37,098 nt of DNA from Saprospiraceae bacterium (GTDB lineage Bacteria > Bacteroidota > Bacteroidia > Chitinophagales > Saprospiraceae): NCBI GenBank assembly GCA_013002995.1, contig JABDLO010000449.1:1-37098 (forward strand), given 5' to 3'. The position numbers and the translations under genes were made by a program. The notes below the pieces were generated by a model. It did no database searches and was not told where the DNA came from. It worked only from the letters and a program-made list of their open reading frames with translations. This document shows, one piece after another, positions 7,228-36,702 of the stretch; the stretch's first letter is position 1, and every line of letters starts with the position of its first letter.

Positions 7228-9993
7228 TTATTCTCCGGAGATTGGTTTTAGGCCATGTAAATTGAATAAAGAATCCAAGGCATGATCCAGGTCACTCTTT
7301 ATAGACTGATAGAGAGCATAGGCTTCAGAGTTGGAGTTATCACAGTGGTTTTCGAGGGTTGCCATCTGATCTGTTAGCTTCGGTAATCCAATCATCGAAA
7401 ACGATGGCTTAAGCTTATGGGTCATCTCCCGAGCAGTGCTCCAATTGTTATCAATTAGATGTTTTTCCAGATCGTTGAATATAGGAAGATTCGTTTCTAA
7501 AAAGATCTCAAACATATCTTTGGCTGCTTCGAGATCGTCTCCATATAATTCTTTCAGTACGGTTTCATCAAGGGTTTTAAAGTCTTGTTTTTCCTTAGTA
7601 TCGACAACATCTGAATGTCCCAGGATTTCCTGCATCTTGGTTAAGAGTTGTGGGGGCGTAAATGGCTTAGAAAGGAAGTCATTGGTTCCAGCATCCAGGG
7701 CTTTATCTATCTGAGATGCAAAGGCAGAAGCTGTTAATGCAAGAATTGGGGTATCCTTGTTTAGATTGCCTGAGGTTCTAATATTTTTTGTGGCTGTCAA
7801 CCCATCCATCTCAGGCATCCTGATATCCATAAAAATGAGATCATAAACCTTCTTGGAGCAGTTTTTTAATGCCTCCAATCCATTGAAAACATAATCAACT
7901 TCAGCATTTAATTTAGATAGGATCCGACGGACGTAATAGGTATTCATTACGTTGTCCTCTGCAACTAAAAACTTCATATTGCTGAACAGTTCTTCTTGTT
8001 CAACTTTAATTTCACGATCACTTTTAATAGTTATCTTTTCATCGGTTTTCTTAAAGTCCAGGGTAACAGAAAACTCACTTCCTTTTCCCAGGGTGGAAGC
8101 GACAGAAATTTCTCCTCCAAGAAAATCTATGATCTTTTTGGTAATGGCAAGGCCCAATCCGGTTCCTCCAAACCGCACAGATGTTTGTTTGTCCGCCTGT
8201 TTAAAGCGATCGAAGATTAATTTTTGTTTGTCTTTAGAAATTCCAATTCCGGTATCCTTGATTTTAAATTTAATGGTCCTGGAATCAGCAGTTTTATTCA
8301 ATTCGTTGGCTGAAATATCAATACTTCCTTTATCAGTAAATTTAATTGCATTACCCATAATGTTAAAAAGGATCTGATTGATCAACACTTTGTCACCGAG
8401 GAGGTAATATTCATTTTCTTCTAATCCCTTCAATCCAATGGATACAGATTTACCTTTTAGTTGGTGTGAAAATGTATTTTTTACCGTTTTCAAGAGATCA
8501 TTGAGGTCCAGCTTTTCCAGATTCAATTCCAGTTTTCCGGATTCAATCTTGGATATATCAAGTACATCGTTTATGATGCCTGCAAGGATTTCTGTAGAAC
8601 TTTTTTGAATTTCCACAAATTCACGCTGGTCATTAGATAGGTCCGTTTCCATTAAAAGGTGAAGCATTCCCGTTATGGCATTGAGAGGTGTCCTTATTTC
8701 GTGACTCATGTGAGCCAGGAACTGCATTTCAGCCTCTCTTGCGGCTTCCGCTTCTTTTCTGGCTTTAATAAGGTTTTTCTGAACCATTACTTTCTCAGTG
8801 AGGTCGCGATATTGCCACAAATGTCCCAGATATCGATCGCCGGAAAAGATAGGTGTATAATCTCGTTCAAGGATTCTCCCATCTACCATATGGAGTTCGT
8901 CTCCCAGGACGATTTTTCTGTTTTTCAATATTTCATAGATGCGATCGGTAAATTTTTTGGGATTGTCAAATAAAAGCTTGGACTCTTCTGCGGCATTGGA
9001 GCAGTCTGCTCCAACCAATGCTTTAGGAGGAGCAGATATATTAAATAGCTCGCAAAAATAAGGATTGGTTAATACGATTCTTCTTTTTTCATCTTCAACC
9101 AAGACACCGGCCTGGAGTGTTGAAATAAGATTACTCAATCTGAGTTCACTAGATTCCAGTTCCAGCTCAACCAGCTTCCTTTCAGTAATATCTTTGGCGA
9201 AAGCCCTGATTTCATAAGTGTCATTACCAGTAGTAATTCTCTGTGTATGCTGACCCACCCATAGCTGCCCACCGGTTTTGGTCTTCATAGGAAATTCAAA
9301 GTACAGCTCCTGATCATTATTTTGAACCATCTTTATAAAGTTTCCATCTACTGTGGAAACCCAATCTTCAAACACAAACTCAGAGTAATGTAAACCCAAC
9401 GCTTCAGACTTAGAGTATCCCATTTTTTTGGTTCCCACGTCATTGACAAAGGTAAGGCACCCCTTATCATCTAGCTTGTAAATAATATCACTTCCAAATT
9501 CTACCAATTCACGATACCTTCCTTCACTTTCTTCCAGTCTATCATTTAACATTTTGATATCGGCATTGGCAATATCTTTCACTTTTACAACTTGTAGAAG
9601 ATCAGTAACTGCATCGTGTAGGGCGTAATCTGTCAGACTCAGATGATGTGTCTTCAGATCATCGGGATTGGTCAGCCATGGTGAACCAATGAACAACATC
9701 TTGTTGTCATCAAGTTGAATGATCTCTCCTCGGAATTGTAAGTCGGTTTTAGAATTTATTGCTTTTAGGATAAATATCTGAGTGGTAAATTCAAGTATTG
9801 AATTAAAGTTTTTGCCTGCTGACCTGGGACGCCTGATCGTAAAGTAATCAGTAAATGGACTTCCTTCAAGGTCAGGAAAAAGCTTAAGAATGCTTTTTCC
9901 AGCTCCGACAATCATTAAATCTCTATCTATAATAAAGCTGAAAGGGAAGATTCTATTAAATAAAAACCTGTCTAATTGAAAGTGAATTCCCAT
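7228..9993 (-). CDS. Hybrid sensor histidine kinase with H-NOX-associated (HNOBA) N-terminus, 2 PAS, HisKA, HATPase, REC, HPt
   Basis: Soluble 921-residue multistep phosphorelay kinase. Domains in order: HNOBA-like domain (1-~150; FPFSFIIDRDL, then FIGSPWLTNPDDL and LTDYALHDAVTDLLQV, as in soluble guanylate cyclases and H-NOX partners); PAS (~155-270); PAS (~285-400); HisKA with phospho-His in HMSHEIRTPLN (~430); HATPase with N box GNAIKFTDKG (~545) and G boxes DTGIGIS and GGTGLGL; REC with phospho-Asp in FMDIRMPEMDG (~720); HPt with phospho-His in MTHKLKPSFS (~858). There is no transmembrane segment, so the input is expected from a cytosolic partner. The H-NOX gene ends 7 bases upstream, and HNOBA domains are known to pair with H-NOX. 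The HPt can pass phosphate to the LytTR regulator encoded two genes upstream. Confidence 0.93.
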   Translation of the reverse strand: MGIHFQLDRFLFNRIFPFSFIIDRDLMIVGAGKSILKLFPDLEGSPFTDYFTIRRPRSAGKNFNSILEFTTQIFILKAINSKTDLQFRGEIIQLDDNKMLFIGSPWLTNPDDLKTHHLSLTDYALHDAVTDLLQVVKVKDIANADIKMLNDRLEESEGRYRELVEFGSDIIYKLDDKGCLTFVNDVGTKKMGYSKSEALGLHYSEFVFEDWVSTVDGNFIKMVQNNDQELYFEFPMKTKTGGQLWVGQHTQRITTGNDTYEIRAFAKDITERKLVELELESSELRLSNLISTLQAGVLVEDEKRRIVLTNPYFCELFNISAPPKALVGADCSNAAEESKLLFDNPKKFTDRIYEILKNRKIVLGDELHMVDGRILERDYTPIFSGDRYLGHLWQYRDLTEKVMVQKNLIKARKEAEAAREAEMQFLAHMSHEIRTPLNAITGMLHLLMETDLSNDQREFVEIQKSSTEILAGIINDVLDISKIESGKLELNLEKLDLNDLLKTVKNTFSHQLKGKSVSIGLKGLEENEYYLLGDKVLINQILFNIMGNAIKFTDKGSIDISANELNKTADSRTIKFKIKDTGIGISKDKQKLIFDRFKQADKQTSVRFGGTGLGLAITKKIIDFLGGEISVASTLGKGSEFSVTLDFKKTDEKITIKSDREIKVEQEELFSNMKFLVAEDNVMNTYYVRRILSKLNAEVDYVFNGLEALKNCSKKVYDLIFMDIRMPEMDGLTATKNIRTSGNLNKDTPILALTASAFASQIDKALDAGTNDFLSKPFTPPQLLTKMQEILGHSDVVDTKEKQDFKTLDETVLKELYGDDLEAAKDMFEIFLETNLPIFNDLEKHLIDNNWSTAREMTHKLKPSFSMIGLPKLTDQMATLENHCDNSNSEAYALYQSIKSDLDHALDSLFNLHGLKPISGE

Positions 9994-10000
9994 ACCTATT

Positions 10001-10543
10001 CTACCATTTTACTTCAAAGACTTCATGATCGTGTCCATTATCACGGCTTTCTAGCAATTCAACTTCGATCTCTGTTTTATGCATTTTTGCTAATCCATGG
10101 AAAAGGCCATAAACGAAATCAGCCAATCCTGCACGATGTGAATAGTAATGGACGTACAGTGACTTCTCCTGAATGTTAGATATCTTAAATTCAGGAGGTT
10201 CAAGGTCAGGAAACATCAACATCACCCGACTATGAAAATTAGGGAGATTGATCAGGAACTCTCTGAATGAGTTTCCACCAGACTCCAATAAGCTTCCGTA
10301 ATTTTCCATTCCGGTGCGTAAAATCCAATATTCACCCAGAGTGGACAGCACTTTAGATAAAGGTATCTCTAAAACTTCAGAAGCACCGATAGCCAATTTA
10401 TAAGTTAAGGCATCATCATAAGGTTGGTTGGAAAGGAATACATCTATATCAACTCCACTTTTCTGTTTAATTTTTTCCCACGTCGCCTCTCCAAAATTTT
10501 CAAGGACCATTCCCTTGACCGCTTTATTTACAATGCCATACAT
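10001..10543 (-). CDS. H-NOX heme nitric-oxide sensor protein
   Basis: 180 residues, the usual H-NOX size, with the characteristic MYGIVNKA start. It binds b-type heme through proximal His104 (NFHSRV). The porphyrin-propionate motif Y-x-S-x-R is present (Y133, S135, R137). By eye, the position that holds the distal Tyr in oxygen-binding H-NOX proteins is not Tyr here (RAGLADF). This suggests an NO-selective sensor that excludes O2. The ATG lies 1 base after the TAA of the response regulator gene, and the gene ends 7 bases before the kinase gene, so all three are translated from one message. NO-bound H-NOX typically inhibits or modulates its cognate kinase. Confidence 0.94.
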   Translation of the reverse strand: MYGIVNKAVKGMVLENFGEATWEKIKQKSGVDIDVFLSNQPYDDALTYKLAIGASEVLEIPLSKVLSTLGEYWILRTGMENYGSLLESGGNSFREFLINLPNFHSRVMLMFPDLEPPEFKISNIQEKSLYVHYYSHRAGLADFVYGLFHGLAKMHKTEIEVELLESRDNGHDHEVFEVKW

Positions 10544-10544
10544 A

Positions 10545-11234
10545 TTATATTAGGTTTAGTCGTTCCATAAGTGGTTGTTTATTGGCTCTGCTTACAGGAA
10601 CTATGTTTTTATGAATTAAAATTGAATTTTCTTCAATATCTACAATCTTGTCAAGGTTGATGATAAATGATCTATGTACCCTCATAAACCGGTCTGAGGG
10701 CAACTTTTCTGCTAGCTTCTTCAAGGTACTGTATACTATGTGTTTTTTCTCCTCTGTGTGAAATCTGACATAATCTCCAATATTCTCAACGAATAGAATA
10801 TCATCTAAAAATATCTTTACGAAGCGGCCTTCATCTTTAATAAAAATATGGTTATCTGTTTTTTTGTGGGCTACTTCTACCTGGCTTTCAAGGACCTTCT
10901 GTACGGCTTGATTAAATCGAGGTAACTTAATTGGTTTCCTCAAATAATCAGTAACCTGGTATTGGAATGCTTCAAATGCATATTCTTCCTTGGAAGAGGT
11001 AACGATCACATGAGGAATAACAGAACATCGGTCCAGTAGATCAAATCCCGTAGCCCCAGGCATTTCAATATCAAGAAATATAAGATCTATTGATGCTGTC
11101 TCCATGAAACTTAGAGCTTCCTCAACATTTCCACATATCGAAAGAACCTCTATTTCCGTAAACTTATTACAATGGTTTTGCAGAAGCTTCTGTGACATCA
11201 GGTCATCTTCTACAATAATGCTTTTAATAGCCAT
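10545..11234 (-). CDS. LytTR-family response regulator
   Basis: 229-residue cytosolic transcription factor. The receiver domain (1-~120) has acidic residues EDD (9-11), phospho-acceptor Asp55 in FLDIEMPG, a Thr/Ser switch residue (VTSS) and a conserved Lys (LRKP). The DNA-binding LytTR domain (~135-229) shows IFIKDEGRFVKI, ILFVENIGDYVRFH, FMRVHRSFIINLDKI and VPVSR. LytTR domains bind pairs of ~9-10 bp direct repeats about 21 bp apart. Exactly such repeats lie in front of the STAS gene and the GT2 gene. It is the first gene of the H-NOX/kinase cassette and 60 bases downstream of the TPR/barrel gene, so it is probably the output of the NO phosphorelay. Confidence 0.92.
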   Translation of the reverse strand: MAIKSIIVEDDLMSQKLLQNHCNKFTEIEVLSICGNVEEALSFMETASIDLIFLDIEMPGATGFDLLDRCSVIPHVIVTSSKEEYAFEAFQYQVTDYLRKPIKLPRFNQAVQKVLESQVEVAHKKTDNHIFIKDEGRFVKIFLDDILFVENIGDYVRFHTEEKKHIVYSTLKKLAEKLPSDRFMRVHRSFIINLDKIVDIEENSILIHKNIVPVSRANKQPLMERLNLI

Positions 11235-11294: not shown

Positions 11295-13343
11295 TTATAA
11301 AGCCAAACCATTCCCCAAATTCACCTTAATTGACATGAACACGGATTGGTAAGCATAACCGGATGCAACATCTGAAGCCGTATTGCTTCCTTTTATACCT
11401 GCCATAAAGTTAAAGTTATCAGAAATTTTATAATTCAATTGTCCCGACCATCTAAATGAATCTTGCCAGCCTATGAATGAACTTCCTTGTGTTCCATATG
11501 CTAATTCTCCTGTAACAGACCACCTCTGATTGATTTTTGCAGGACTATTGTATTGAATGAAAACTTCACCTGATTTAAATGACTCAGGGCTGAAGTATAA
11601 ATCAACATCAGTATCACCATAATTTAAATAGCTCATATTAACCCCAATTTTAAACCCTTTCAACGCAGTTAATTGATGGAAGAAAGAGAGGAATGCCCAT
11701 TGATTAGTATTATCATCCGATAACTTTGAAAAGCCGGATTGCACGTATAATCCCCATGATTGTCCTATGGAAGTGAAGTAGTTGCCTGAAAGTCTCATAA
11801 CACTTGTTTTACTCCTAACCATCTCAGAATTATAATCCAGTGAAGAGATATTTAAGTTTACTCCAATATTCTGTTGGGCATTTAATCGATATTGCAAGCC
11901 AAGATCTGTAATAAAATTATTGTTTAAGTTGGATAAAAAAGATGATGATCGTTGAAAACCAACAAGTGCCTTTCCACTGATTTTATAGTGAGGGTTCCAG
12001 TTAATACCAGCCGCCAGGTTGGTTCTTTTTGCTGCTATGGCTTCCTTGTTTTGGAAGGTGCTTTTATGATTGAATTGGATGAAGGGGCTTATATTTGTTT
12101 GTTTAGAAAATTGATATTGCAGGCTGATTTCTCTGCTTTGATTCCCTCCATTATCATTCATGTCAATGGCTGATACTTGAAAGAATGGCTTAATATCTTG
12201 TTGGATCCTTTGTTTCAATCTCCAGGCATCTACTCGATCTGCGTCCTGGGAAATGGCATGATCCAATTGGTTGATGGCATCCGTGTATTCTTTTTTTGCA
12301 AATTGTAGTTCAGCATAACTGACACGTAACTCGTAATGGTCAGGATAAACATCCATTAAATCCTTGTATATTAACGAAGACCGGTCAAAATCACCTTGCC
12401 AAAAATACAACCTGGATCGTGCCATGTCAAATACCAGGGTGTTGCCCAGCTGATCTTCCCATTGACTAATAGTTTTGTGAGCTTCAGTAAATTTTTTAGC
12501 CGCTCCCAAAGCATTGATCTTCGTTATAATGGTCCTAATAAGCAACGAGGTATCTGTACCGGTGGCTGCTTCCAATAGTGCATTCTCAGCCATTTCAATG
12601 GAAGTTGAATGATCCTGGTTAATCATACTTGTGTATGAATGGCCTAATGAAGCTTCTAATACATCAATGCTTTCTTCCAGCATGTGATGGTATACTTCCT
12701 GTGCCTGACCATATTTTTGCTCTGTAAGATAAAGCGAAGCCCTGGTCAACATCACATCCCTATCTTGAGGATTCCACAATTCAATTGAATCGAGAAATTG
12801 ATGTCCTGACTCATATTGTCCTTGCTTCCTGGCTTGATCAGTAAGACCCAGCAATATGTATTTTTTTGAGATTAGAGCCTGGTCATTGTGATTTAAGTAT
12901 AGTGCCCTATCAATCATATCTAAAGCTTCCTGGTATTTTTTTTCTATAGACAATGAATTGGCATATCCCAGGACAATTGCAAAGTTGGTTGAATCTGTCT
13001 GGTACAGGTCATTAAAAAATACAAGGGCTTCACCACTTCTATCAGCCCACAAATAAGCTTCTGCCTTATTTAATCTAATTTCAATATCTCCTGGATATTC
13101 TTTTTCCATTTGTTGGAAATGATAGATTGCTTGATTTGGTGCTCCGCTTAATCCCACAGCTCTTCCATAACATAACTGAGCTGTCTTATTGCCAGGATGA
13201 TTATCGAGGATTTCTGAAAAATATATTTCAGCTTCAGAGAATTGCCCATTCTCCAATAATTGAAACCCATTATTCATGTTGACTTGAGCAGTGCTTGTTA
13301 TGGCAAGGCTGATGATGATGACAAGTGATAAAACAACTTTCAT
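11295..13343 (-). CDS. Periplasmic TPR / outer-membrane beta-barrel protein (PgaA/YaiO-like)
   Basis: 682 residues with a signal peptide (VVLSLVIIISLAITSTAQ). Residues ~20-385 are about ten TPR-type helical repeats (e.g. LLENGQFSEAEIYFSEIL, EKKYQEALDMIDRALYL). Residues ~390-682 alternate as amphipathic beta strands with aromatic ends (REISLQYQF, ISPFIQFNH, NLAAGINWNP). The protein ends in a typical barrel strand, SVFMSIKVNLGNGLAL. The architecture matches porins such as PgaA that export polysaccharide through the outer membrane, and the YaiO family. It is divergent from the STAS-flippase-GT operon, with a 201-bp shared promoter region that carries the LytTR-like repeat. A role as outer-membrane export channel is inferred from context. 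Confidence 0.75.
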   Translation of the reverse strand: MKVVLSLVIIISLAITSTAQVNMNNGFQLLENGQFSEAEIYFSEILDNHPGNKTAQLCYGRAVGLSGAPNQAIYHFQQMEKEYPGDIEIRLNKAEAYLWADRSGEALVFFNDLYQTDSTNFAIVLGYANSLSIEKKYQEALDMIDRALYLNHNDQALISKKYILLGLTDQARKQGQYESGHQFLDSIELWNPQDRDVMLTRASLYLTEQKYGQAQEVYHHMLEESIDVLEASLGHSYTSMINQDHSTSIEMAENALLEAATGTDTSLLIRTIITKINALGAAKKFTEAHKTISQWEDQLGNTLVFDMARSRLYFWQGDFDRSSLIYKDLMDVYPDHYELRVSYAELQFAKKEYTDAINQLDHAISQDADRVDAWRLKQRIQQDIKPFFQVSAIDMNDNGGNQSREISLQYQFSKQTNISPFIQFNHKSTFQNKEAIAAKRTNLAAGINWNPHYKISGKALVGFQRSSSFLSNLNNNFITDLGLQYRLNAQQNIGVNLNISSLDYNSEMVRSKTSVMRLSGNYFTSIGQSWGLYVQSGFSKLSDDNTNQWAFLSFFHQLTALKGFKIGVNMSYLNYGDTDVDLYFSPESFKSGEVFIQYNSPAKINQRWSVTGELAYGTQGSSFIGWQDSFRWSGQLNYKISDNFNFMAGIKGSNTASDVASGYAYQSVFMSIKVNLGNGLAL

Positions 13344-13451: not shown

Positions 13452-13482
13452 TACCAAACTCTGTGTAAATCCTACCAAACTC
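13452..13482 (+). promoter_or_regulatory. LytTR-type direct repeat upstream of the STAS operon
   Basis: Two identical 10-mers TACCAAACTC start at 13452 and 13473, exactly 21 bp apart, so they fall on the same DNA face. This is the standard LytTR operator layout. The second copy begins 42 bp before the -7 box at 13515. The divergent TPR/barrel gene could share the site. Confidence 0.65.
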
Positions 13483-13514: not shown

Positions 13515-13522
13515 TAAGTTTG
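13515..13522 (+). promoter_or_regulatory. -7 element of the STAS operon promoter
   Basis: TAAGTTTG fits the Bacteroidota -7 consensus TAnnTTTG exactly and lies 22 bases before the ATG. No TTTG-like -33 box is found 19 bases upstream (GATT there), as expected for an activator-dependent promoter. Confidence 0.5.
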
Positions 13523-13544: not shown

Positions 13545-13892
13545 ATGGACCAAATTTCAATTCAAATTATCCCACAGACAGAAAGAGATCATTATTATTT
13601 AATGGTGGAAGGCAAGCTTTGTGGCATGGATGCTATCAGATTTAAAAATGATGCTCAAAAACGTCTTTCACAACCTTTAGATGGAATGACGATTGATCTT
13701 TCAAAGCTGAAAGATATTGATCTTACAGGCATCAACATGCTGACAATGTTACATAAGGATTTAAAGAAGTTGAATATTCCTTTCGCGATTATTGTCACTA
13801 GTAACTGTCCCTTTATGGATAAAATAAAGGAAACCAAACTTCACCGATTTCTTCCTTTTGTTTTTAAAGCTGCATCCCACAGGAATGTTTAA
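13545..13892 (+). CDS. Single-domain STAS protein (anti-sigma-factor-antagonist-like)
   Basis: 115 residues covering one STAS domain: beta strands IQIIP, YYLMVEGKL and MTIDLSKL, the signature loop, and IPFAIIV. These proteins act as phosphorylation-controlled protein-binding switches. In the signature loop the usual D-S-[ST]-G reads D59-L60-T61-G62, so the Ser normally phosphorylated appears to be Leu; the next Thr remains. No anti-sigma kinase or phosphatase is encoded nearby. It is the first gene of an operon: its last codons overlap the flippase start by 8 bases. Stand-alone STAS proteins at the head of polysaccharide loci (for example SypA in Vibrio) control biofilm output; the same role here is an inference. 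Confidence 0.8.
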   Translation: MDQISIQIIPQTERDHYYLMVEGKLCGMDAIRFKNDAQKRLSQPLDGMTIDLSKLKDIDLTGINMLTMLHKDLKKLNIPFAIIVTSNCPFMDKIKETKLHRFLPFVFKAASHRNV

Positions 13893-15171
13893 AGTATTCA
13901 TATACAAGATATTCAAGAACCATGCATTGATCCTAATGCTGGCGATTGCAGGTGTCAATGCCGGCAATTATTTGCTGAACTTATTACTAGGCAGATTTTT
14001 AGGACCTGAAGATTTTGCTGAAGCCGGTATCCTAGCTACAATGGTGATGGTATTATCTTTTATAGCTGTTGGTATACAGATGACTGCAGCTAAGTACTCA
14101 GCTGAACTGAAGGAGGAAGGATCTGAAGAAAAGCTACTTGAATTTCAATCATGGATAACTAGAAAAACATTGATCTCGAGTATCTTCCTGACATTCCTGA
14201 TTGTATTACTGATTCCAGTCGTACAATCCTACTTACACTTTCGATCACCTGTTCCTTTTATATTGATATTTATAGGTGTTCCGGTATATTTTCTGATGAG
14301 TGTACAGAGGGGTTTTTTACAGGGAGCTCAGGAATTCAAAAGATTTGCCGGGACCTACATTGCTGAAATGATTGGACGGATATCTGTAACAGTAATTGCA
14401 ATTGCCTATGTAAGATATTACGACATCAACGGTTATTCAGAAGCTGTAAGCTTAGGTTTTTTAGCTTCATTTATCTTTTCTCTGGTTTACACAGGGAGAT
14501 TGAAAATAAAGTCCCTTTCAGCTTCCAACGATTTAAGAAAATCCATCTTTTCATTCTTCATTATTATGATGTGCTATGAAGGAACTCAAATTGCTATAAG
14601 TTACAGTGATGTTATTCTGGTAAAGCACTATTTTGAAAATCACGAATCAGGCCTATATGCTGCTTTGTCACTCCTTGGAAGAATAGTTTATTTCGGTACA
14701 TGGGCTCTTGTAATGGTTTTGGTCCCCAAGGTTATCGAGAAAGCGAAGAAGGGATTATCAACTACGCAGAATCTGATTCAGGCATTGACCATCATCATCT
14801 CCTTTGGAATGAGTATGGTCATCGGTACAGCCATTTTTCCTGATTTACTGGTCAGTCAGTTATTGGGATCAGAGTATTTACCGATGAGCAGCTTTTTATG
14901 GAAGTATGCTCTTGCAACTACTCTTTTTGCAGCAGCAAATGTAATCGCATATTATTACCTGTCACTAGGTAAGTATCTACCTGTTGCTCTGTCAGCATTG
15001 GTTGGCACCCTGCAGGTAATCATGATCGTATTTAATCATCAATCAATTATAAATATTATTAACATTCAGATGATACTGATGTCTTTTCTACTTGTAGGAA
15101 TGATTATTTATCATCTGTCCAATCCAACTCAATATGAAAATCGCAATAGTATCTCCTTATCCTCCCAGTAA
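13885..15171 (+). CDS. Polysaccharide flippase (Wzx/MATE-like, MOP superfamily)
   Basis: 428-residue integral membrane protein with about 12 hydrophobic segments (e.g. ALILMLAIAGVNAGNYLLN, MVMVLSFIAVGIQM, LISSIFLTFLIVLLIPVV). The first helix and the following LLGRFLGPEDFAEAG match polysaccharide-biosynthesis/oligosaccharide flippases, which move lipid-linked glycans across the inner membrane. I start it at the ATG at 13885 (MFKVFIYKIF), overlapping the STAS stop by 8 bases with AGGA just before. A longer frame from 13858 would overlap the STAS gene by 35 bases. Its 3' end overlaps the GT4 gene by 38 bases, indicating translational coupling. The substrate is unknown. Confidence 0.85.
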   Translation: MFKVFIYKIFKNHALILMLAIAGVNAGNYLLNLLLGRFLGPEDFAEAGILATMVMVLSFIAVGIQMTAAKYSAELKEEGSEEKLLEFQSWITRKTLISSIFLTFLIVLLIPVVQSYLHFRSPVPFILIFIGVPVYFLMSVQRGFLQGAQEFKRFAGTYIAEMIGRISVTVIAIAYVRYYDINGYSEAVSLGFLASFIFSLVYTGRLKIKSLSASNDLRKSIFSFFIIMMCYEGTQIAISYSDVILVKHYFENHESGLYAALSLLGRIVYFGTWALVMVLVPKVIEKAKKGLSTTQNLIQALTIIISFGMSMVIGTAIFPDLLVSQLLGSEYLPMSSFLWKYALATTLFAAANVIAYYYLSLGKYLPVALSALVGTLQVIMIVFNHQSIINIINIQMILMSFLLVGMIIYHLSNPTQYENRNSISLSSQ

Positions 15172-16396
15172 GCTTACGCTAAATGAATATGCTCACCATC
15201 TGGTAACGCATTTTCAAGAAAAAAGAGAGATAACGGAATTAATAGTCATAACCAATGAGCTTCCTGAAGGTGAGCAATACTCCATTGACGTAGGTAACGT
15301 ACCTGTAAGATTTGAAGCGGTATGGAATTTTAACAGTTTCAAGAACCCGTTAAGCATCTTGAAAACCATCAAGCTTCACAAGCCTGATGTAGTATTTTAC
15401 AACATCCATTTTTTAACTTTTGGAGATAACAAAGTTGCCGCAGCACTGGGATTGATGACGCCCATGTTGACCAGGTTGTCTGGATTTGTCTCAGTCGTTT
15501 TGTTGCACAACATCATTGAAAGTGTTGATCTGTCATCAGCAGGATTTACCCGCAATGTATTCTTGAAGTGGATATACACGATGTTTGGAACATTTTTAAC
15601 ATTTATGTTGCTAAGAGCCAACCTTGTGGCAGTAACCATATCTAAATATGTGTCCATCCTTGAAAAAAAATACAAAGCAGACAACATAGCATTGGTTCCT
15701 CATGGAAGTTTTGAGACTCCTGACGAACCATCCTTTCAACTCCCTGCCGGCCCTAAAAAAATCATGACATTTGGAAAATTCGGGACCTACAAGAAAGTGG
15801 AAAGCATGATTGAGGCTGTAGAATTAGTCAGAAATCGTACAGGTGCCGACCTGGAAATAGTTATAGCAGGAACAGATAGTCCCAATGTACAGGGTTACCT
15901 GGACGCTGTTCAGGAAAAATATTCAGAAGTACCACAGATCACCTTTACCGGGTATGTAGAAGAAGAGGATGTACCTCGTATTTTTAAAGAAAGTGCCATG
16001 GTAGTCTTTCCCTATACCAGCACAACAGGCAGCTCAGGGGTATTGCACCAAGCAGGCAGCTATGGATGTGCGGCAATATTACCCAACATTGGAGATCTAA
16101 AAGCCTTGATAGAAGAAGAAGGATATCGTGGAAATTATTTTGAGCCGGACAATGTAGAATCATTGGCTGATGCTATTGAGGAATTGGTACTCAATGATGA
16201 AAAAAGAATCCAATTAGGTAAAGCCAATTATGTTGCAGCAGCCTCTTTGCCGATGGCAGACATCACAGACTGGTATATGCTCCACTTCAATCACTTAATA
16301 AATGAGAAAGCAGTAAATAAACAAAATTCTACTGTCGCACAGTTGATCAAATCATTGAATCGCAGAGAGACAGTAACAATCAATCCTGCTCAATAA
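15134..16396 (+). CDS. Glycosyltransferase family 4-like (GT-B fold)
   Basis: 420 residues, presumably transferring a sugar from a nucleotide donor to a lipid-linked or polymer acceptor at the cytosolic membrane face. The N-terminal GT-B half starts MKIAIVSPYPPS and holds a hydrophobic segment (~140-165) that may attach it to the membrane. The C-terminal half has IMTFGKFGTYKKVESMIEA, LEIVIAG, FTGYVEEEDVPRIF and the donor-site region TTGSSGVLHQAGSYGC. The canonical EX7E pair is degenerate (second Glu replaced by Gln), a variant seen in some GT4 enzymes, so donor type and activity are uncertain. It overlaps the flippase gene by 38 bases. Its stop is 3 bases from the stop of the convergent glycosidase gene. 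Confidence 0.85.
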   Translation: MKIAIVSPYPPSKLTLNEYAHHLVTHFQEKREITELIVITNELPEGEQYSIDVGNVPVRFEAVWNFNSFKNPLSILKTIKLHKPDVVFYNIHFLTFGDNKVAAALGLMTPMLTRLSGFVSVVLLHNIIESVDLSSAGFTRNVFLKWIYTMFGTFLTFMLLRANLVAVTISKYVSILEKKYKADNIALVPHGSFETPDEPSFQLPAGPKKIMTFGKFGTYKKVESMIEAVELVRNRTGADLEIVIAGTDSPNVQGYLDAVQEKYSEVPQITFTGYVEEEDVPRIFKESAMVVFPYTSTTGSSGVLHQAGSYGCAAILPNIGDLKALIEEEGYRGNYFEPDNVESLADAIEELVLNDEKRIQLGKANYVAAASLPMADITDWYMLHFNHLINEKAVNKQNSTVAQLIKSLNRRETVTINPAQ

Positions 16397-19191: not shown

Positions 19192-22100
19192 CTAATCTTC
19201 ATAGGCTATTGAGGTAAAACTTTCTACATTGAACCTCACTGAATAATTTAAACCATCCACTGAGATTTTAAATTTAGGAGTGGCAAGTTGTATTAATGAA
19301 TTGATGCCAGGGGTAATCCTATTAGTAAGGCCGTTAACAATGATATCACCTTCTTCCGCAATATCAATAATACTGACATCATCTATATCGGATAAAGACA
19401 ACTTCCAGGAAAGTTTTCTTTGTGGTTTTACACCAAATGGTAGGTAATTAATGTCAATCCATTTTAGAGTATCCCCTTCATACTGGCTCGTCATAACTTT
19501 AGGGATCACGACTTCTTCCGTACCGTGATTGAATAAATTAACAATGACCTGATCGGAATTGGTGACATTAGAAAACTCCAATGCGGTATTCTGATATATA
19601 TTTTCATCGGTAACGACTGAACGTATGAATAGCACAAAAGAAGATGGAATCCTTTCTTCGAAATCATTCGTATTCAGACTGCTGGTTCTCTCTTCCTGTA
19701 AATTGATTAGAAAGGAGGTGGATTCTTTGGGCATCAAACGGCAATTGATATAATCACGTGCATTGAACGATAACAATTCTTCCTGGAACTGATCATAAAT
19801 GACAGCTGAAACAGTAACGTGTGCAGGATCATTGTCCACATTGATCAGCTCACCGATTACAAAATATTGACTGTCTCTCTGGATCATTTGGGATTGAATC
19901 ACACATACTTCCGGGCGATCCACAATGTCTCTTTGAAGGGTATAATTAACCAATGCTTTTCTTCTCCCCTGGCTGTAAAAGTCAATGCTTGTTTGATTTA
20001 CCAGGACATCAGCAGGTTCAGTTGGATCGTTACTGGAAGGCTGTATATACCATCGATTATCTTTTTTCAGAACAGTATAATTTTCAATTGTTTTATACTC
20101 TTCCAATGAAGTTATCCAATTGGCTGTAGCCGATACCAATACACTATCATTTCCTATGGGCCTTTCTTCAAGGGATAAGGAATCAAGCTTGGCATAAGAA
20201 GACAGCATCCCACCTTTTATGGATTGCTGAAGTAAAAACTGTTCCAGGGAAGGGCGGGTGTCCGGATCTAAATATTCGTATGCTTTATTGAAATTCTTAA
20301 AATCTATTTCATGGTAAAAGGCTTGCAGGAGATTATCTGGATTGTGATAATCACTTGTTTCAATGGTTTGATATATATTAATGCCAATGATAAATACAAT
20401 CAGACCCAATATCCAGGTTGCCTGAATCGGCCAGAGAATGCTATGTACTCCTTTTAGGTGTTTAACAGGAATATCAATTGCAAGATTTTCCTGATTGGTT
20501 TTGAATGCTTTCAACCATATAAGATAGGAGATCAGCAAGAGGAAAAATGAAATTGGAAGGATTCCCCACATCAAGCGTTGGGTTTTCGGAATTTCTTTTT
20601 TGGGAAGGATAGCAGGCAAAGGCGGGACATCGGGTTTTTCCCAGACAACAATATCATTTTCCAGGGATTGTAGTTTTCTCCATCCGCTGTAATGCAACAA
20701 TGGATCATAAAACTGGTCATTGGAAAATATAAATTTTAAGTTGTACCGTTCAGGGACAGTCAGGAATTGTCTTAGTGCACTGATGCCATCCTCTCCACGG
20801 TACTTGGCATTTTCAAGCCTCTCAACTGCTCTGGATGTCATTTCAGGAAGCCGTCGTACAGAATGGTAATTTCCATCGACACTGAGGGCATCCGTATTGG
20901 CAGCAAGCCATGCCATCTGATCTCCAAATCCAAGTGTGAGATACCTCCACCGGTCGTGGTAGTCCTTTTCAAGAAACTTGGTAATGGGTTCAATATCGAT
21001 GCGTTCAGGTTGGAGCGTCCTGAAAAAACTGATGTTTACAACCAGAACAAAGGAAACTACGATACCCCCAAGGATAAGAAATCTGAAAGCCCTGTAAGTC
21101 CATGACCCTGCCCGGGTAGTGAGTAATTCTTTAAACCTCCCCTGAAACAATTCAATAATAAATAGACCCCAGAATGGTAGACCAATCAATGTACCCCAGT
21201 AAGTAAAGCGATCAAGCGTGAGGATCTCAAAGGCCGTGTCACCCAGCATCATTCGTGGGATGGGAGTAGTTCCCCCAGTTCCTAATACAAACAATAATGA
21301 CACCGAAAGAAACAGAAAAATGTACCGCTTACGGAAAAGCCTGGTAAAAAGAAAAGGAAGAAATAACAACATCATACCCCATGGTATCAGAAAAAACACC
21401 AATCCAGAAGACGTAACGTCGATGAATGAATCCCTGGAACCATGAGGGATCGGCACCTGGGTTATAGGATCAGATTTGGACCAATACCAATAAGGAAAAA
21501 TAACTGTAATTGTAATGGCAATAACAGTCATTCCAAAAGCCATTAACCTGGGTATCAGACGCCATGCTTCTTGAAAGAAATATCTGAATGTAACCTCTTC
21601 ATCACCTAATTTTTCCTGTACCCGATCAAATACAGCAACACCTAAAACCGGCATGACAAAAAACACCATCCCAAAAATGGTGGTAACATGATGAGCTGTA
21701 GAAATAACTGCAAAAAAAAGCAATGAAAGGACCAGCCTTGATCGGCTGTCATTTCTCAACCATCGGTATATTTCAGGACAAGCATTCAGCAGCAGTGCGG
21801 ATCCGGTAAGGCTCGGCATCTGACCGAATATGTGTAAAGCCTCAGCTATGGAAGTTGAAAATACAGCCATTAAAGCAGCCATTAAAGCAGCTTTCTGCCC
21901 TACCCAGATCAATGAAAAATGATATACCCCTCGTATAATTAAAAATACCACCAGGCAAGACCACAGGATAATTCCAAGCTCTAATCCAACTATTTTAGAA
22001 ATTAAGGCTACACAGTGATGCACCAGGGGTGGATAACTCGTAACCGTAAAACCAGTATACCACCGGTAATCCCATGTATCGAACCAGCTCTTTTCATAGT

Positions 22101-22233
22101 GGTCAGCGAAGAAAATATGTACAAAGATATCATAGGTGTCATCGTATGTAAAGAACATTAACGAAGTATGGATAACCACCCCAAGTAAGATGACCAGGTA
22201 GTAATACTTTTTATGGTTTGTGTTCAATGACAT
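19192..22233 (-). CDS. Large multi-spanning membrane protein, GT-C / PTPS-related-like, with extracytoplasmic C-terminus
   Basis: 1013 residues. The N-terminal ~430 residues are hydrophobic with about ten membrane helices. The first extracytoplasmic loop carries DDTYD (31-35), and FTVTSYPPLVHH follows, as in GT-C glycosyltransferases and the '6-pyruvoyl-tetrahydropterin synthase-related' membrane family. These use a loop Asp with lipid-linked sugars outside the inner membrane. Two more helices lie at ~551-571 and ~598-622. After them come an NTF2-like domain (~640-740, ending NRWYIQPS) and a beta-rich tail (~750-1013). It leads an operon with the lipoprotein (3-base gap) and glycosidase. Glycan transfer or polymerisation is inferred. 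Confidence 0.72.
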   Translation of the reverse strand: MSLNTNHKKYYYLVILLGVVIHTSLMFFTYDDTYDIFVHIFFADHYEKSWFDTWDYRWYTGFTVTSYPPLVHHCVALISKIVGLELGIILWSCLVVFLIIRGVYHFSLIWVGQKAALMAALMAVFSTSIAEALHIFGQMPSLTGSALLLNACPEIYRWLRNDSRSRLVLSLLFFAVISTAHHVTTIFGMVFFVMPVLGVAVFDRVQEKLGDEEVTFRYFFQEAWRLIPRLMAFGMTVIAITITVIFPYWYWSKSDPITQVPIPHGSRDSFIDVTSSGLVFFLIPWGMMLLFLPFLFTRLFRKRYIFLFLSVSLLFVLGTGGTTPIPRMMLGDTAFEILTLDRFTYWGTLIGLPFWGLFIIELFQGRFKELLTTRAGSWTYRAFRFLILGGIVVSFVLVVNISFFRTLQPERIDIEPITKFLEKDYHDRWRYLTLGFGDQMAWLAANTDALSVDGNYHSVRRLPEMTSRAVERLENAKYRGEDGISALRQFLTVPERYNLKFIFSNDQFYDPLLHYSGWRKLQSLENDIVVWEKPDVPPLPAILPKKEIPKTQRLMWGILPISFFLLLISYLIWLKAFKTNQENLAIDIPVKHLKGVHSILWPIQATWILGLIVFIIGINIYQTIETSDYHNPDNLLQAFYHEIDFKNFNKAYEYLDPDTRPSLEQFLLQQSIKGGMLSSYAKLDSLSLEERPIGNDSVLVSATANWITSLEEYKTIENYTVLKKDNRWYIQPSSNDPTEPADVLVNQTSIDFYSQGRRKALVNYTLQRDIVDRPEVCVIQSQMIQRDSQYFVIGELINVDNDPAHVTVSAVIYDQFQEELLSFNARDYINCRLMPKESTSFLINLQEERTSSLNTNDFEERIPSSFVLFIRSVVTDENIYQNTALEFSNVTNSDQVIVNLFNHGTEEVVIPKVMTSQYEGDTLKWIDINYLPFGVKPQRKLSWKLSLSDIDDVSIIDIAEEGDIIVNGLTNRITPGINSLIQLATPKFKISVDGLNYSVRFNVESFTSIAYED

Positions 22234-22302
22234 CTACTGTTAAAAATCTATCTCGGGGAAAGATACAATCCTAAACCCATTTTCTGAAAACTGGGGAATA
22301 TC

Positions 22303-22333
22303 TACCATTCTCAAGGTAGAATTTACCGCTCAT
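22303..22333 (+). promoter_or_regulatory. LytTR-type direct repeat upstream of the GT2 gene
   Basis: TACCATTCTC (22303) and TACCGCTCAT (22324) are exactly 21 bp apart. The first copy matches 8 of 10 bases of the TACCAAACTC repeats before the STAS gene. The second copy begins 42 bp before the -7-like box at 22366, the same offset as at the STAS promoter. It could also serve the divergent GT-C operon. Confidence 0.55.
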
Positions 22334-22365
22334 CGAGTAATCTCTAAGTGCCTGATTCTTAGGCT

Positions 22366-22373
22366 CATATTTG
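22366..22373 (+). promoter_or_regulatory. -7-like element of the GT2 promoter
   Basis: CATATTTG matches TAnnTTTG with one mismatch, 34 bases before the ATG. The expected -33 position lacks TTG, consistent with an activator-dependent promoter. Confidence 0.4.
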
Positions 22374-22406: not shown

Positions 22407-23216
22407 ATGAAATCTGGAATAATTATACCCTGTTACAATGAAGCCAATCGATTACAATTTCAAGAATTCGATCAATTCCTTAAAGACGACCGAGATACGG
22501 TTTTGTGTTTTGTGAATGACGGCAGCAAAGATGCAACCCTTGAATTGTTGAATCAATTCCAACAAAGTCACCTTGAAAGAGTACATGTATACGATATGCC
22601 ACAAAACCAGGGGAAAGCGGAAGCTGTGCGTGCAGGTATCAACTACATGCTAGAATTAGGTACTTGTGATAATCTGGGATTTATGGATGCCGATCTCTCA
22701 ACCAGCTTCGAGGAATACCTGGGATTGGTCGATAACCTTAAGTGTGAATCCAGGAATTTACAGCTGGTTTTTGGCTCCAGGAAAGGGGAAGCTTCATCAA
22801 ATACTGAAAGAGGTTTTTTTAGAAAATTGATGTCAACCATAATCGGTAGTATGATCAGGATCCTTTTACAGCTTCCAATCAATGATACTCAATGTGGTGC
22901 CAAGGTATTTTCACTGGATGCTGCCAGATATTGCTTTAGCAGACCATTTGTATCGAGGTGGTTATTCGATGTAGAAATATTTATAAGGATGAGAACACGA
23001 CATTCCAGAAAACAAGTGATGCAAATTCTGGCAGAAATTCCATTAAAAAAGTGGGTAGCGGTAGGAGATAGCAAGATCACCATGAGTGAATCGGTTAAGA
23101 TCCCGGCACAACTTTTAAAAATTGCTGGCACCTATTATCTCAAGCCACAATTTGCTGAAGGAGTGAGAGCGGCTTCCATATTGTTCTTAAGTCTCATGCC
23201 ATTTCTCAGATCATAG
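22407..23216 (+). CDS. Glycosyltransferase family 2 (dolichyl/polyprenyl-phosphate glycosyltransferase-like)
   Basis: 269 residues with a GT-A fold: IIIPCYNEANRL at the start, FVNDGSKDAT, NQGKAEAVRAGI, the DXD-like FMDADLSTS, LVFGSRKGEAS, a membrane-proximal amphipathic stretch (KLMSTIIGSMIRILLQLP), NDTQCGAKVF and WLFDVEIFIR. These match enzymes of the Alg5/GtrB kind that load glucose or a similar sugar onto polyprenyl phosphate on the cytosolic side. Such lipid-linked sugars are the donors for GT-C enzymes, so it may supply the GT-C-like protein encoded divergently 173 bases away. The gene is monocistronic, with a terminator at 23298-23333. Confidence 0.87.
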   Translation: MKSGIIIPCYNEANRLQFQEFDQFLKDDRDTVLCFVNDGSKDATLELLNQFQQSHLERVHVYDMPQNQGKAEAVRAGINYMLELGTCDNLGFMDADLSTSFEEYLGLVDNLKCESRNLQLVFGSRKGEASSNTERGFFRKLMSTIIGSMIRILLQLPINDTQCGAKVFSLDAARYCFSRPFVSRWLFDVEIFIRMRTRHSRKQVMQILAEIPLKKWVAVGDSKITMSESVKIPAQLLKIAGTYYLKPQFAEGVRAASILFLSLMPFLRS

Positions 23217-32337: not shown

Positions 32338-35300
32338 TTATTCATTGATTAAAATGAATTTCCTGGTTGCCCATTGATCATTCATTTGGATATGGATAAA
32401 ATATATTCCTCCTGGAAGATGGCTCAGGTTGATATTAAATGAATGATCTATTGAAGCAAATGGCTTTGATCTTTTATGCATCAATTTCGTGCCTATTGCA
32501 TTGGTAATGGACCATTGTTGTATTCTTTGATTCTGGTCAATATCTATATTCAGTGAACCATAACATGGATTGGGAAATATGTTGATGGCGTTATCCGGAA
32601 TGAATTGATCTTCGGTGCTGGTTGATATAAAAGTTTCAGCATCCCAGGACGACGGAGCTTCTTCTAAATTTCCCACGAAATCATGTGCAATACTATAAAA
32701 CTGATAAGAAGTATTTTCTTCACCATAAAATGTCGCTAGTGTATCAGTTGTATGGTACAACCATAATTGAAAAGTATCCTGATCTATCGAAAAATATATA
32801 TCATAATAATCGATTCCAGAATCATCATCATGCCCTCCCCAACTCACATCAAATTGTGTGGTATTAACCTTGTCTGTTAATGGATTCACTGAGCTCTCTG
32901 GAGCTATCTGATCAAGGGTCATTTTGTATTCATTGGTGATCAAGGGTTGGTTAGCATCGAAGATGATACTAGCATCATTTTCTATTTCATCTCCATGGAT
33001 CAAGTCTTCGTAGACATTTACACTAAACGATATCATCCCTTCACCTTCAGGAGAGATTTTATTGGGTGGAAGGAAACCGATGTCAGGGTCTTCAATGTCT
33101 GTGAGTGTCTCCGGATCAAGGCTTCTAATCTCCCAATAAATTTTACCTGTAATTATATCAAGTTTCCCATAGACTCTTGCTACAACCTCATGTTCAGCTA
33201 AAAAATAATCACCGAAAAACTCCTTTAATCCCGGCTCTGGATACCATGTACTATCAGCTATGGTAAATCGTCCAAAAGAGAAAGTATTAAGATCATATTT
33301 TGAAAGATCTAATTGGTCCGTTATTTTGAGAACATGAACAGGGGCTGTTGCAAAGTCTTTATTTTCATAGTAAACCTGGAATGGAATATTTCCAGCTTCC
33401 CGGAAATAATTCTGTTCTCGAAATCCTATAGGTCCTACTTTTTCATTAGGATCTAAATTAAAGGTTGCCTTGATTCTCTTTCCTGATAGGTTCTTAGCTT
33501 CACATTCTTTATTACATTCTGATTGGTCATTTTCACTATGGTCCAAATTCAATCTTGCAATACTTGAATTATTTGTCCGATTTTCCAAATTGGCAATGTG
33601 ATAAAGCGTTACGTATAGGTAGGCAGTAAGTTTAGCTAATGCCTCTCTCTCTTCCTTATTACCTATACTTCCACACTCTTTATGAACTGTTGAAAATACT
33701 TTTATGATATTTCTTGGATTGATGCTATAAGGTTTATTTGAATCTCTGTTCTCATCAACAATGGATGAAATTTCTGCAACAAAATAGGATTGAAGATATC
33801 CTATGGCACATTCAAATGGAGTTATTTCATATATCATTTCAGCTGCTTTTGTAGCAACGTTTGCAATGCACTCAGTTTTTATTAGGTTTAGTGGAGAACT
33901 AAACATCGGTTTTTCGGCCCAGGTTATAATTTCCAGATCCTTGTCAGTTTTGATTTTTATAGGGAATGATATGTTATTTCCATGTGGAATTATTGGGAAA
34001 ATAAATGAATATACACGTGCATTAAACGGCAATCCATCAGTAGTATCAAGGGTAATATATGGAACTTCTCCATTTCCAAATTGCTCTTCAAAATCATGTG
34101 CAAAGAGTAATGAATCTGTAAATTCAACATTCAGACTATCTGTCGCCTCAATCAATATCCAACCGGGCACAAATAATGCGTCAACATTTCCATAGTTCCC
34201 TAATTCAATACTATATCTTGAAGGTGTATTGAAAAGAATTCTGTCTCGACCTATCACTCGAATCCAGGGATCTGCAACTATACCTTCAACTACCTCAAAT
34301 CCATCCTCGATTGTAAAAGAAGGCCCGCCTTCTTTGTCAACCACAACATCGTAAATTCCAAGGTTTACGCCACTTAAATCAATCATTCCTGAGATATTAT
34401 TCCTTCCGGTTTTAGCTGTTCTTTCTGTTGAACTGACAATGCCTCCATTGTCTGTTAATTTGATTGTGAAAAATGAATCTAATCCTCCACCATAAGCAGT
34501 AATGAATATTTCTCCAATGTCGCCTCCAAATGTTGGGGTTATACCTGACAACCCATAGATGATAATTGTTTGACACATACTGTCCATCCCCGCCTCATTA
34601 TTTGCAGTAAGGCACACATCATAAACACCCGGCTCTGGATATTCATAAAGTGGATTTACTTCATCACGCTGGTTTCCATCACCGAATTCCCATAGATATT
34701 CACTGCCATGGAGTGATGTGTTCTCGAATAATACTGAATTATTAACCTGGGTAAAACTGAAACCCGCCTCAGGTTTAGGAAGAAAAGTCGGGTGAATAAG
34801 ATATTCCAGGTCCTGATTTGGGGATGCTACCTGGATGAAATATCTGCCAGGATTCAAGAACTTTTTTATCCGCTCCGTAAATATATCGTAAAACACCCGT
34901 TTCTGACTGATGACCGGATTACCTTCCTGCCCCGGATCTCTCAGATAGACCCAGAAAATACCGTCATTATGCTCTTTAAAAATGTCCAGGGTCAACAACC
35001 CTTCTTCCACCACCTCAAATTCATACCAATCAGCCAGATCATAGCCGGTCCCGGCCTCGTAATAATATAAATTACCGGTTATTGAATCTGATAATGATAT
35101 CATAGTGGCATTCAAGGTATCATTATTAGGTTCTACATCTTCAGGCCAATAAGGAGATGAAAAATTGGATATGATTTGATAATTATTGGGAGCAGAGGCA
35201 TTGGTCACCTGAACATAAAAAGTGCCTTCCAGGAAATGATTTCTCATATAAAGTAGTCCATCTGAATGAAATAGTCTTTTTTGGTTAAGTAAAAAGAGTG

Positions 35301-36702
35301 GGTCTTTTTCTCCGTCATACAGATAAACTGAAATTTCCGTGCCCTCTATAATCTCTTTTTGAATTTCAAGTTCTAAAAAGCCCACCTGGTCTATAACCAA
35401 TTGATACCAATCTTTTGTATCTCCTCCTTTTCCAGCCTGATAATATGCTATATTGCCAGTAATGGTATCATTGGGTTCCAAAGTCAAAGCTGTTGCTACC
35501 TCATCATTGGGTTCTTCATCTTCTTGCCATTGCGGAAGAGTAAAGGTAGACACAATTTGATAGTTATTGGGTGAACTGGCACCGGTCACCTGGACATAAT
35601 ATGTGCCTTCCAGCAAGTAATTTCTTATGTAAAGTAGCCCTTCGGATTGGAATAATCTTTTTTGGTTGATAACCAAAAAGGGGTCTTTTTCACCATCATA
35701 TAGGTATACAGTAAATTCTGTTCCTACTAAGAATTCTTTCTGGATTTCAATCTCCAAATATCCAGCCGTGTCAATGACCAATTGATACCAATCTTTTGTA
35801 TCACGTCCCAGTCCTGCCTTATAGTAACCTATATTTCCAGTTATAGTGTCAGTAGGATGCATGGTTAATGCAGTTTCTACATCATCGTTGGGTTCAGTAT
35901 CTTCTTCCCACACAGGAGGAGTAAATGTTGTCCTTAATCGATATGTATTAGGGTGAAAAGGTGAACCGATCTGGATATAGTATTTTCCTTCCAGTAAATA
36001 TTGCATCATGGTATGTAAGGAGTCAGTAAGAAACAGGCGATACTGTTTAATGATAGGAGACCCTTCTTTCTCACCGTCTCTCAGATACATGGTAAATTCT
36101 GAATTTAGCAGAACAGATTTTTGAATTTCTAATTCCATTAATCCACTTTCTTTCAGATCAAGCACATACCAATCTTGTGGATCATTGCCGACACCCGCTT
36201 CATAATATAAGATGTTTCCGGTAACTTCATCATTGGGAAGAATCTGGATAGCTGTGGATTCATCATTATTGGGTTCGATATCATCGGGCCAATTGTTAAC
36301 AATTAATCTGAGTGTCAAGGAATAAGGAATTAAGGTGGTAGCGGTCCCAATACGGATGTAATAGGTTCCTTCTAACAGATGATGTTTCAGTGTCAGCAAG
36401 GTGTCAGTATTAAACATCCTCAATTGCTGGATGATAGGTTCTCCTGCTATCTCTCCGTCGTGTAGGTACACCCAGAAAATGATGTTGCCTTCCGCTTTTC
36501 TGATATCTAACTCAAATAATCCCCCTTCCTCCAGTTCAAATTGATACCAATCATTGGCATCGGTGGTTGATATATCTCCCTGTATAGTCGAATCAAATAG
36601 TAGAACATCCGCTTGCTCAGGGGAGTCGTTGGGTTCGTTTTCCTGGGCGTATAATAGTTGAAATAAACAAGTAATAAAGATGAGCGTAAGGACTTTTTTC
36701 AT
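32338..36702 (-). CDS. Large secreted T9SS protein with five PPC-like repeats, PKD domain and fibronectin-like domain
   Basis: 1454 residues with a signal peptide (VLTLIFITCLFQLLYAQ). Five ~126-residue bacterial pre-peptidase C-terminal-like domains begin EPND/EPNN at about residues 21, 142, 270, 397 and 522 (typical NDWYQFEL and LLEGTYYIRIG motifs). A PKD domain follows (~645-713; YLWEFGDGN, PGVYDVCL), then a long beta-rich region with DUF11-like traits (FREAGNIPFQVYYEN). Near the end are a fibronectin-III-like domain (VSWGGHDDDSGIDYY) and a T9SS type A sorting domain (IFPNPCYGSLNID ... GGIYFIHIQ). There is no catalytic motif, so it is probably a cell-surface or released adhesin. It lies 205 bases upstream of the adaptor-protein gene in the same direction. 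Confidence 0.85.
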   Translation of the reverse strand: MKKVLTLIFITCLFQLLYAQENEPNDSPEQADVLLFDSTIQGDISTTDANDWYQFELEEGGLFELDIRKAEGNIIFWVYLHDGEIAGEPIIQQLRMFNTDTLLTLKHHLLEGTYYIRIGTATTLIPYSLTLRLIVNNWPDDIEPNNDESTAIQILPNDEVTGNILYYEAGVGNDPQDWYVLDLKESGLMELEIQKSVLLNSEFTMYLRDGEKEGSPIIKQYRLFLTDSLHTMMQYLLEGKYYIQIGSPFHPNTYRLRTTFTPPVWEEDTEPNDDVETALTMHPTDTITGNIGYYKAGLGRDTKDWYQLVIDTAGYLEIEIQKEFLVGTEFTVYLYDGEKDPFLVINQKRLFQSEGLLYIRNYLLEGTYYVQVTGASSPNNYQIVSTFTLPQWQEDEEPNDEVATALTLEPNDTITGNIAYYQAGKGGDTKDWYQLVIDQVGFLELEIQKEIIEGTEISVYLYDGEKDPLFLLNQKRLFHSDGLLYMRNHFLEGTFYVQVTNASAPNNYQIISNFSSPYWPEDVEPNNDTLNATMISLSDSITGNLYYYEAGTGYDLADWYEFEVVEEGLLTLDIFKEHNDGIFWVYLRDPGQEGNPVISQKRVFYDIFTERIKKFLNPGRYFIQVASPNQDLEYLIHPTFLPKPEAGFSFTQVNNSVLFENTSLHGSEYLWEFGDGNQRDEVNPLYEYPEPGVYDVCLTANNEAGMDSMCQTIIIYGLSGITPTFGGDIGEIFITAYGGGLDSFFTIKLTDNGGIVSSTERTAKTGRNNISGMIDLSGVNLGIYDVVVDKEGGPSFTIEDGFEVVEGIVADPWIRVIGRDRILFNTPSRYSIELGNYGNVDALFVPGWILIEATDSLNVEFTDSLLFAHDFEEQFGNGEVPYITLDTTDGLPFNARVYSFIFPIIPHGNNISFPIKIKTDKDLEIITWAEKPMFSSPLNLIKTECIANVATKAAEMIYEITPFECAIGYLQSYFVAEISSIVDENRDSNKPYSINPRNIIKVFSTVHKECGSIGNKEEREALAKLTAYLYVTLYHIANLENRTNNSSIARLNLDHSENDQSECNKECEAKNLSGKRIKATFNLDPNEKVGPIGFREQNYFREAGNIPFQVYYENKDFATAPVHVLKITDQLDLSKYDLNTFSFGRFTIADSTWYPEPGLKEFFGDYFLAEHEVVARVYGKLDIITGKIYWEIRSLDPETLTDIEDPDIGFLPPNKISPEGEGMISFSVNVYEDLIHGDEIENDASIIFDANQPLITNEYKMTLDQIAPESSVNPLTDKVNTTQFDVSWGGHDDDSGIDYYDIYFSIDQDTFQLWLYHTTDTLATFYGEENTSYQFYSIAHDFVGNLEEAPSSWDAETFISTSTEDQFIPDNAINIFPNPCYGSLNIDIDQNQRIQQWSITNAIGTKLMHKRSKPFASIDHSFNINLSHLPGGIYFIHIQMNDQWATRKFILINE
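35080..36645 (-). repeat. Tandem PPC-domain repeats of about 380 bp
   Basis: Five head-to-tail coding repeats. Units 3 and 4 are the most alike: the matching segment TACCAATCTTTTGTATC recurs 381 bp apart (35405 and 35786), and most of the surrounding codons agree. This points to recent internal duplication by unequal recombination. Units 1, 2 and 5 are more diverged. Confidence 0.7.

Follow-up and report, generated by a model that had tools for sequence, protein, structure and literature searches.

Paired direct repeats at two polysaccharide promoters of a Saprospiraceae bacterium: a probable tandem operator for an H-NOX-linked LytTR regulator

Do the paired repeats upstream of two polysaccharide transcription units mark the binding sites of a single regulator, and which protein would that regulator be? 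The question is raised by a stretch of 37,098 nucleotides from a Saprospiraceae bacterium (contig JABDLO010000449.1; hereafter the window), in which the GT2 glycosyltransferase gene and the STAS-flippase-GT4 unit are each preceded by two direct half-sites and a TAnnTTTG-like box (Table 1). The original prediction placed the half-sites 21 bp apart and the second of them 42 bp from the box at both promoters, and on direct reading both spacings are exact at both sites. The repeats most likely form a tandem LytTR operator, probably that of the H-NOX-linked response regulator encoded at 10545-11234 and serving both polysaccharide units; a probability of about 0.82 is assigned to this reading, which is drawn from sequence comparison.

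Repeat geometry at the GT2 and STAS promoters

Table 1. Features of the window, with positions counted from its first letter.
Feature	Position	Strand	Sequence or basis
GT2 distal half-site, putative operator	22303..22312	+	TACCATTCTC; direct sequence reading; resembles Flavobacteriaceae/AlgR-type half-site ACCATTCGTC
GT2 proximal half-site, putative operator	22324..22333	+	TACCGCTCAT; direct sequence reading; 21 bp downstream of distal
GT2 -7 box	22366..22373	+	CATATTTG; 1 mismatch to TAnnTTTG; 42 bp from proximal half-site
STAS distal half-site, putative operator	13452..13461	+	TACCAAACTC; direct sequence reading
STAS proximal half-site, putative operator	13473..13482	+	TACCAAACTC; direct sequence reading
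STAS -7 box	13515..13522	+	TAAGTTTG; exact TAnnTTTG; 42 bp after second half-site
GT2 glycosyltransferase gene, downstream of GT2 promoter	22407..23216	+	Pfam PF00535
STAS-domain gene, first of STAS-flippase-GT4 unit	13545..13892	+	PF01740
Polysaccharide flippase (Wzx-like)	13858..15171	+	PF01943
GT4 glycosyltransferase	15134..16396	+	PF13692/PF00534; 54-67% identical in relatives
LytTR response regulator (REC + LytTR), proposed repeat binder	10545..11234	-	PF00072 + PF04397; tree
H-NOX, predicted haem gas sensor	10001..10543	-	PF07700; proximal His104 and YxSxR motif present
Hybrid histidine kinase HNOBA-PAS-PAS-HisKA-HATPase-REC-Hpt	7228..9993	-	domain search
TPR / outer-membrane-type protein, first gene of the regulator operon, divergent from STAS	11295..13343	-	
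Large membrane protein, 1013 aa (GT-C in the original prediction), divergent from GT2	19192..22233	-	

Both promoters have short leaders. The repeats are imperfect and direct, about 9-10 bp long with a gap of about 12 bp (a period of about 21 bp), and their placement 5′ of the core promoter is constant, 42/43 or 63/64 bp from the -7 box when the window and its relatives are taken together. Two imperfect repeats about 12 bp apart are a trait of the LytTR family (review, PMC4064291), and the Escherichia coli YpdB site, GGCATTTCAT-N11-GGCATTTCAT, has the same 21-bp period (PMC4847170). Since a 21-bp period between repeats in the same direction is a hallmark of LytTR proteins, a regulator of this family is the candidate binder.

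At the two window promoters the proximal half-site ends about 32 bp upstream of the -7 box, and neither promoter has an evident TTTG-like -33 element, which makes activation beside RNA polymerase the simplest reading. Position alone would also be compatible with repression, and the repeats might instead serve a repressor or an unrelated direct-repeat regulator from outside the LytTR family. This is improbable, as the sites lie upstream of the -7 box and not over it, relatives included, their period and half-site are like those of known LytTR activator sites, and the gene cluster described below showed no further conserved gene for a DNA-binding protein.

The divergent GT-C operon, which the original prediction added as a further possible target, has a candidate -7 box of its own (TATCTTTC, 22265-22258, minus strand) 24 bp before the GT-C start codon, but the repeats at the GT2 promoter are oriented towards GT2. 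In many loci (at 22258-22265 in the window, and in the GTC-GT2 gaps of named Flavobacteriaceae) a short GTAAAGATA-like word directly precedes the GT-C gene; its complement looks like a -7 box that would serve the divergent operon. Elsewhere in the window, five TACCAATC words spaced by 378-381 bp lie at 35024-36552 inside a gene for a 1454-aa protein on the other strand, and their regular spacing is explained by the internal repeats of that protein.

The whole genome (5.35 Mb in 548 contigs, with assembly contamination estimated at 5.7%) was searched with the pattern TACCN3C-N13-TACCN3C-N34-TAnnTTTG, with the reversed pattern as control. The STAS site matches with 0 mismatches and the GT2 site with 1, and no other place in the genome has one mismatch or fewer; the only further matches are three with 2 mismatches each (10 for the reversed control). 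Such places average 0.0045 in first-order Markov versions of the window (maximum 1 in 2000), compared with the 2 observed. When the box is disregarded, TACCN3C pairs at 21 bp show no enrichment (7 in the genome, 28 in the control), and the remaining 5 of these lie over stop-to-stop open frames. Such box-less pairs are not rare, and the evidence is therefore the combined geometry, as the original prediction had argued in holding that chance could hardly account for both shared distances. That the two promoters are alike by chance is accordingly very improbable: the lack of enrichment of the bare pairs could be taken in its favour, but the two distances together are unique in the genome, and a chance origin was rejected on the conservation of the geometry in relatives. 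With up to 3 mismatches, the AAA-type pattern gave 117 matches in the same genome compared with 127 for its control, which is background, and neither this search nor that for TACC pairs returned members of a regulon in this genome beyond the GT2 and STAS sites.

Conservation of the repeats and the gene cluster

Two query proteins, H-NOX and the 1013-aa GT-C protein, were used to find loci in 199 family genomes; the GT-C protein was matched in 33 of the 199 and has no family in a Pfam search. In most of the complete loci of these Saprospiraceae-type relatives the H-NOX, kinase and LytTR genes adjoin genes for the TPR protein, STAS, flippase, GT4, GH5, a 407-aa protein, GT-C and GT2. Direct repeats of the form TACCAAAAATC, again with a 21-bp period, recur before the relatives' STAS, GT2, TPR682 and T9SS-type protein genes, with three copies at some promoters, and before STAS, GT2 and TPR their distance to the -7 box is 42/43 or 63/64 bp; the TPR gene carries its own repeats in several relatives. 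The half-sites of the window (TACCAAACTC, TACCATTCTC) differ from this form, and the family pattern with up to 3 mismatches has no match in the window itself.

Spacing was counted with gene starts inferred from homology. Among 86 upstream regions, window excluded, ACC pairs peak at a spacing of 21 (12 pairs), the next value being 7 pairs at a spacing of 24, and the distance to an nAnnTTTG box is 42, 43, 63 or 64 in 11 of 13 cases, again with the window excluded; 63 and 64 are 42 and 43 plus one further period. Consensus pairs at spacing 21 occur in 20 of 170 upstream regions and in at most 8 for any other spacing, and the leading combinations of spacing and box distance are (21,64), (21,63) and (21,43). 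These counts are not independent probabilities, since some of the same loci supplied the consensus and the genomes share ancestry. Under strict thresholds, a site with a fixed box distance is found in only 13 of 28 cluster loci.

The original prediction proposed a genome-wide scan in which a small set of envelope-gene hits would support a regulon, and this is the outcome obtained, with few matches elsewhere in the genome itself and a small set of such genes in a scan of 398 family genomes. That scan, which used the relatives' form of pair and box with up to 3 mismatches, gave 47 matches, most of them close to envelope, glycan or H-NOX genes, and the control gave 9; in the genomes that were also searched for H-NOX, 10 of 27 matches lie on the H-NOX contig. 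Directly downstream, as named from a reading of the translations, there are among others TPR682 homologues, surface proteins, GlmS (twice), NDP-sugar epimerases (three), a GT4, an acyltransferase, a hexapeptide transferase, an H-NOX gene and a CheY-like receiver. Some of the other 3-mismatch matches look like background. That one regulator governs both polysaccharide units, as had been proposed from the window, is strongly supported by conservation in relatives, and the regulator's class would be that of the window-encoded LytTR protein.

Two genomes from a single genus (L229, about 1505-1550; L230, about 1376-1532) also have arrays of TACCAAAAATC ahead of genes for single-domain CheY-like receivers. 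These receivers are possibly a phosphate sink or a feedback component of the same system.

Named genomes were scanned with a GT4 alignment, and the whole or partial cluster was found in Lewinella, Runella, Lutibacter, Maribacter, Mesonia, Winogradskyella, Polaribacter, Aquimarina and others; synteny across H-NOX, kinase, LytTR, TPR, STAS, flippase, GT4, GH5, GTC and GT2 extends to Runella, Maribacter, Lutibacter and others. The TACCAAAAATC consensus was set aside for the Flavobacteriaceae, since it describes most of their loci poorly (the AAA form is absent from most of them) and a ACCATTCGTC form was found on reading the gaps. Their GTC-GT2 gaps contain AlgR-like half-sites of the TACCATTCGTC type at a matching distance from the box. 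In this named set, which is dominated by Flavobacteriaceae, 1.5 Mb contain 72 ACCnTTCrYC half-sites, of which 27 fall within GTC-GT2 gaps that add up to 18 kb, and most of the forward ones in the gaps stand 63/64 bp before the box. Of the sequence around these half-sites, that exactly 21 bp upstream is the most like the half-site, with a mean identity of 0.46 compared with a background of about 0.26. In the GTC-GT2 gap of five Aquimarina loci (L179, L187, L200, L221, L222) an inverted copy (GACGAATGGT...ACCATTCGCCG) lies beside the direct half-site.

The linked LytTR protein and its exchange for an NtrC-type regulator

The TPR, LytTR, H-NOX and kinase genes of the window follow one another head to tail, separated by 60 bp or less, and diverge from STAS. 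The LytTR gene, 2.3 kb from the first repeat site (STAS), shares this gene run with H-NOX and an HNOBA-type hybrid kinase. Receiver (PF00072) and DNA-binding (PF04397) domains both score above curated cut-offs in the LytTR protein. Its best NCBIfam match is BtsR (6.5e-29), at 101 bits under a curated cut-off of 246, and it is best described as BtsR-like but probably outside the BtsR equivalog family. The H-NOX protein has an HNOB domain with the proximal haem His and the YxSxR motif, and is predicted to be a haem gas sensor; every row of the comparison conserves the His, Ser and Arg.

The window H-NOX is only about 25-30% identical to most of the cluster-linked H-NOX proteins (L119-L130), placing it in a different subfamily, and the gene order is LytTR-HNOX-kinase in the window versus HNOX-kinase-LytTR in L119-L130. 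Subfamily and gene order suggest a replacement of the sensor.

In a tree of 49 proteins, the window regulator groups with cluster-linked LytTR proteins of other genera. The cluster-linked group forms one side of a branch with support of 98/97, and 22 LytTR paralogues from the same genome fall outside it.

Four loci (L073, L076, L077 and L078) have the H-NOX and kinase genes near GT2 with a receiver/sigma-54-activator protein in place of LytTR; this NtrC-type protein was checked by Pfam in L073 and L076, and in L077 and L078 it was inferred from the matching arrangement. A -24/-12 sigma-54 element, TGGCATN5TTG, lies upstream of GT2 in all four (L073:17044, L076:6907 and their counterparts in L077 and L078), and their GT2 upstream regions have no comparable repeats. 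The same element is present in 1 of 170 upstream regions of other loci. The types of regulator and promoter thus switch in step, and this speaks for an action of the linked regulator on these promoters; the pattern is consistent with a joint exchange of LytTR and sigma-A repeats for an NtrC-type protein and sigma-54.

ACC-type half-sites can be common to members of the LytTR family. It might then be another LytTR protein of the same genome that binds the repeats, the nearness of the H-NOX-linked one being incidental: there are 33 LytTR domains in the genome, 32 of them further candidates, and half-sites of the ACC type can be shared in the family, with the AlgR motif as an example (PMC4064291). 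This is unlikely, if marginally less so than repression or a non-LytTR binder, given that this LytTR subfamily stays linked to polysaccharide genes from genus to genus and that the genomes with an NtrC-type regulator have sigma-54 elements and no repeats.

Proposed mechanism and relation to known systems

With the H-NOX-linked LytTR protein as the preferred binder, the two half-sites, on the same helix face and two turns (21 bp) apart, would dock the regulator next to a putative Bacteroidota sigma-A promoter, on its upstream side; the -7 box of this promoter is a good one. Binding of a diatomic gas (NO or O2) to H-NOX may alter the kinase, and a phosphorelay would then phosphorylate the LytTR regulator, which on the repeats would activate, rather than repress, the STAS-flippase-GT4 unit and GT2. 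Joint activation would coordinate the making of one surface polysaccharide. On a wider scale, the balance tips slightly towards a Bacteroidota-wide regulon in which H-NOX and a hybrid kinase control a conserved surface-polysaccharide cluster through LytTR, some lineages having swapped regulator and promoter type while keeping the sensor and the sugar genes.

Tandem LytTR sites as such are known; the wiring of H-NOX, LytTR and polysaccharide genes is apparently undescribed. A search of the open-access literature found neither an H-NOX/LytTR link nor LytTR sites combined with TAnnTTTG described, nor the spread of this wiring in Bacteroidota, the fixed offset to the -7 box or the LytTR-NtrC exchange. 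The half-site, 21-bp period and 42-bp offset provide a testable cis-code for a large class of regulators whose targets in Bacteroidota are little known, and they would connect gas sensing by haem with the synthesis of surface polysaccharide in many environmental bacteria. The use of LytTR and sigma-A versus NtrC and sigma-54 at homologous clusters offers a natural experiment in which wiring is rebuilt with input and output kept.

Among known systems, E. coli YpdB and BtsR likewise use two direct half-sites with a 21-bp period. The motif of BtsR (YehT) is ACC[GA]CT[CT]A-N13, present twice, and TACCGCTCAT would presumably fit it. YpdB and BtsR differ in serving pyruvate sensing with transporters as targets, whereas the present system has an H-NOX-linked cytosolic hybrid kinase, polysaccharide genes and a Bacteroidota-type promoter. 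Peptide quorum sensing is the input of Staphylococcus aureus AgrA. As in the arrangement proposed here, AgrA promoters combine a LytTR protein with paired direct repeats about 12 bp apart, a trait of the family (PMC4064291), but the half-site and the targets are different. In Vibrio fischeri, H-NOX acts via an adjacent histidine kinase (HahK) on exopolysaccharide gene expression at the syp locus (PMC8738867); the pairing of H-NOX with a histidine kinase and the exopolysaccharide output are alike, but the V. fischeri output runs via SypF and the syp regulon and not through LytTR. Pseudomonas aeruginosa AlgR, which acts on alginate genes, is likewise an exopolysaccharide regulator of the LytTR family, and its half-site, CCGTTCGTC (PMC4064291), is almost the same as the Flavobacteriaceae ACCATTCGTC; most AlgR sites stand singly and at wide distances from each other, whereas those described here are in tandem at a fixed 21 bp, with a different kinase and sensor.
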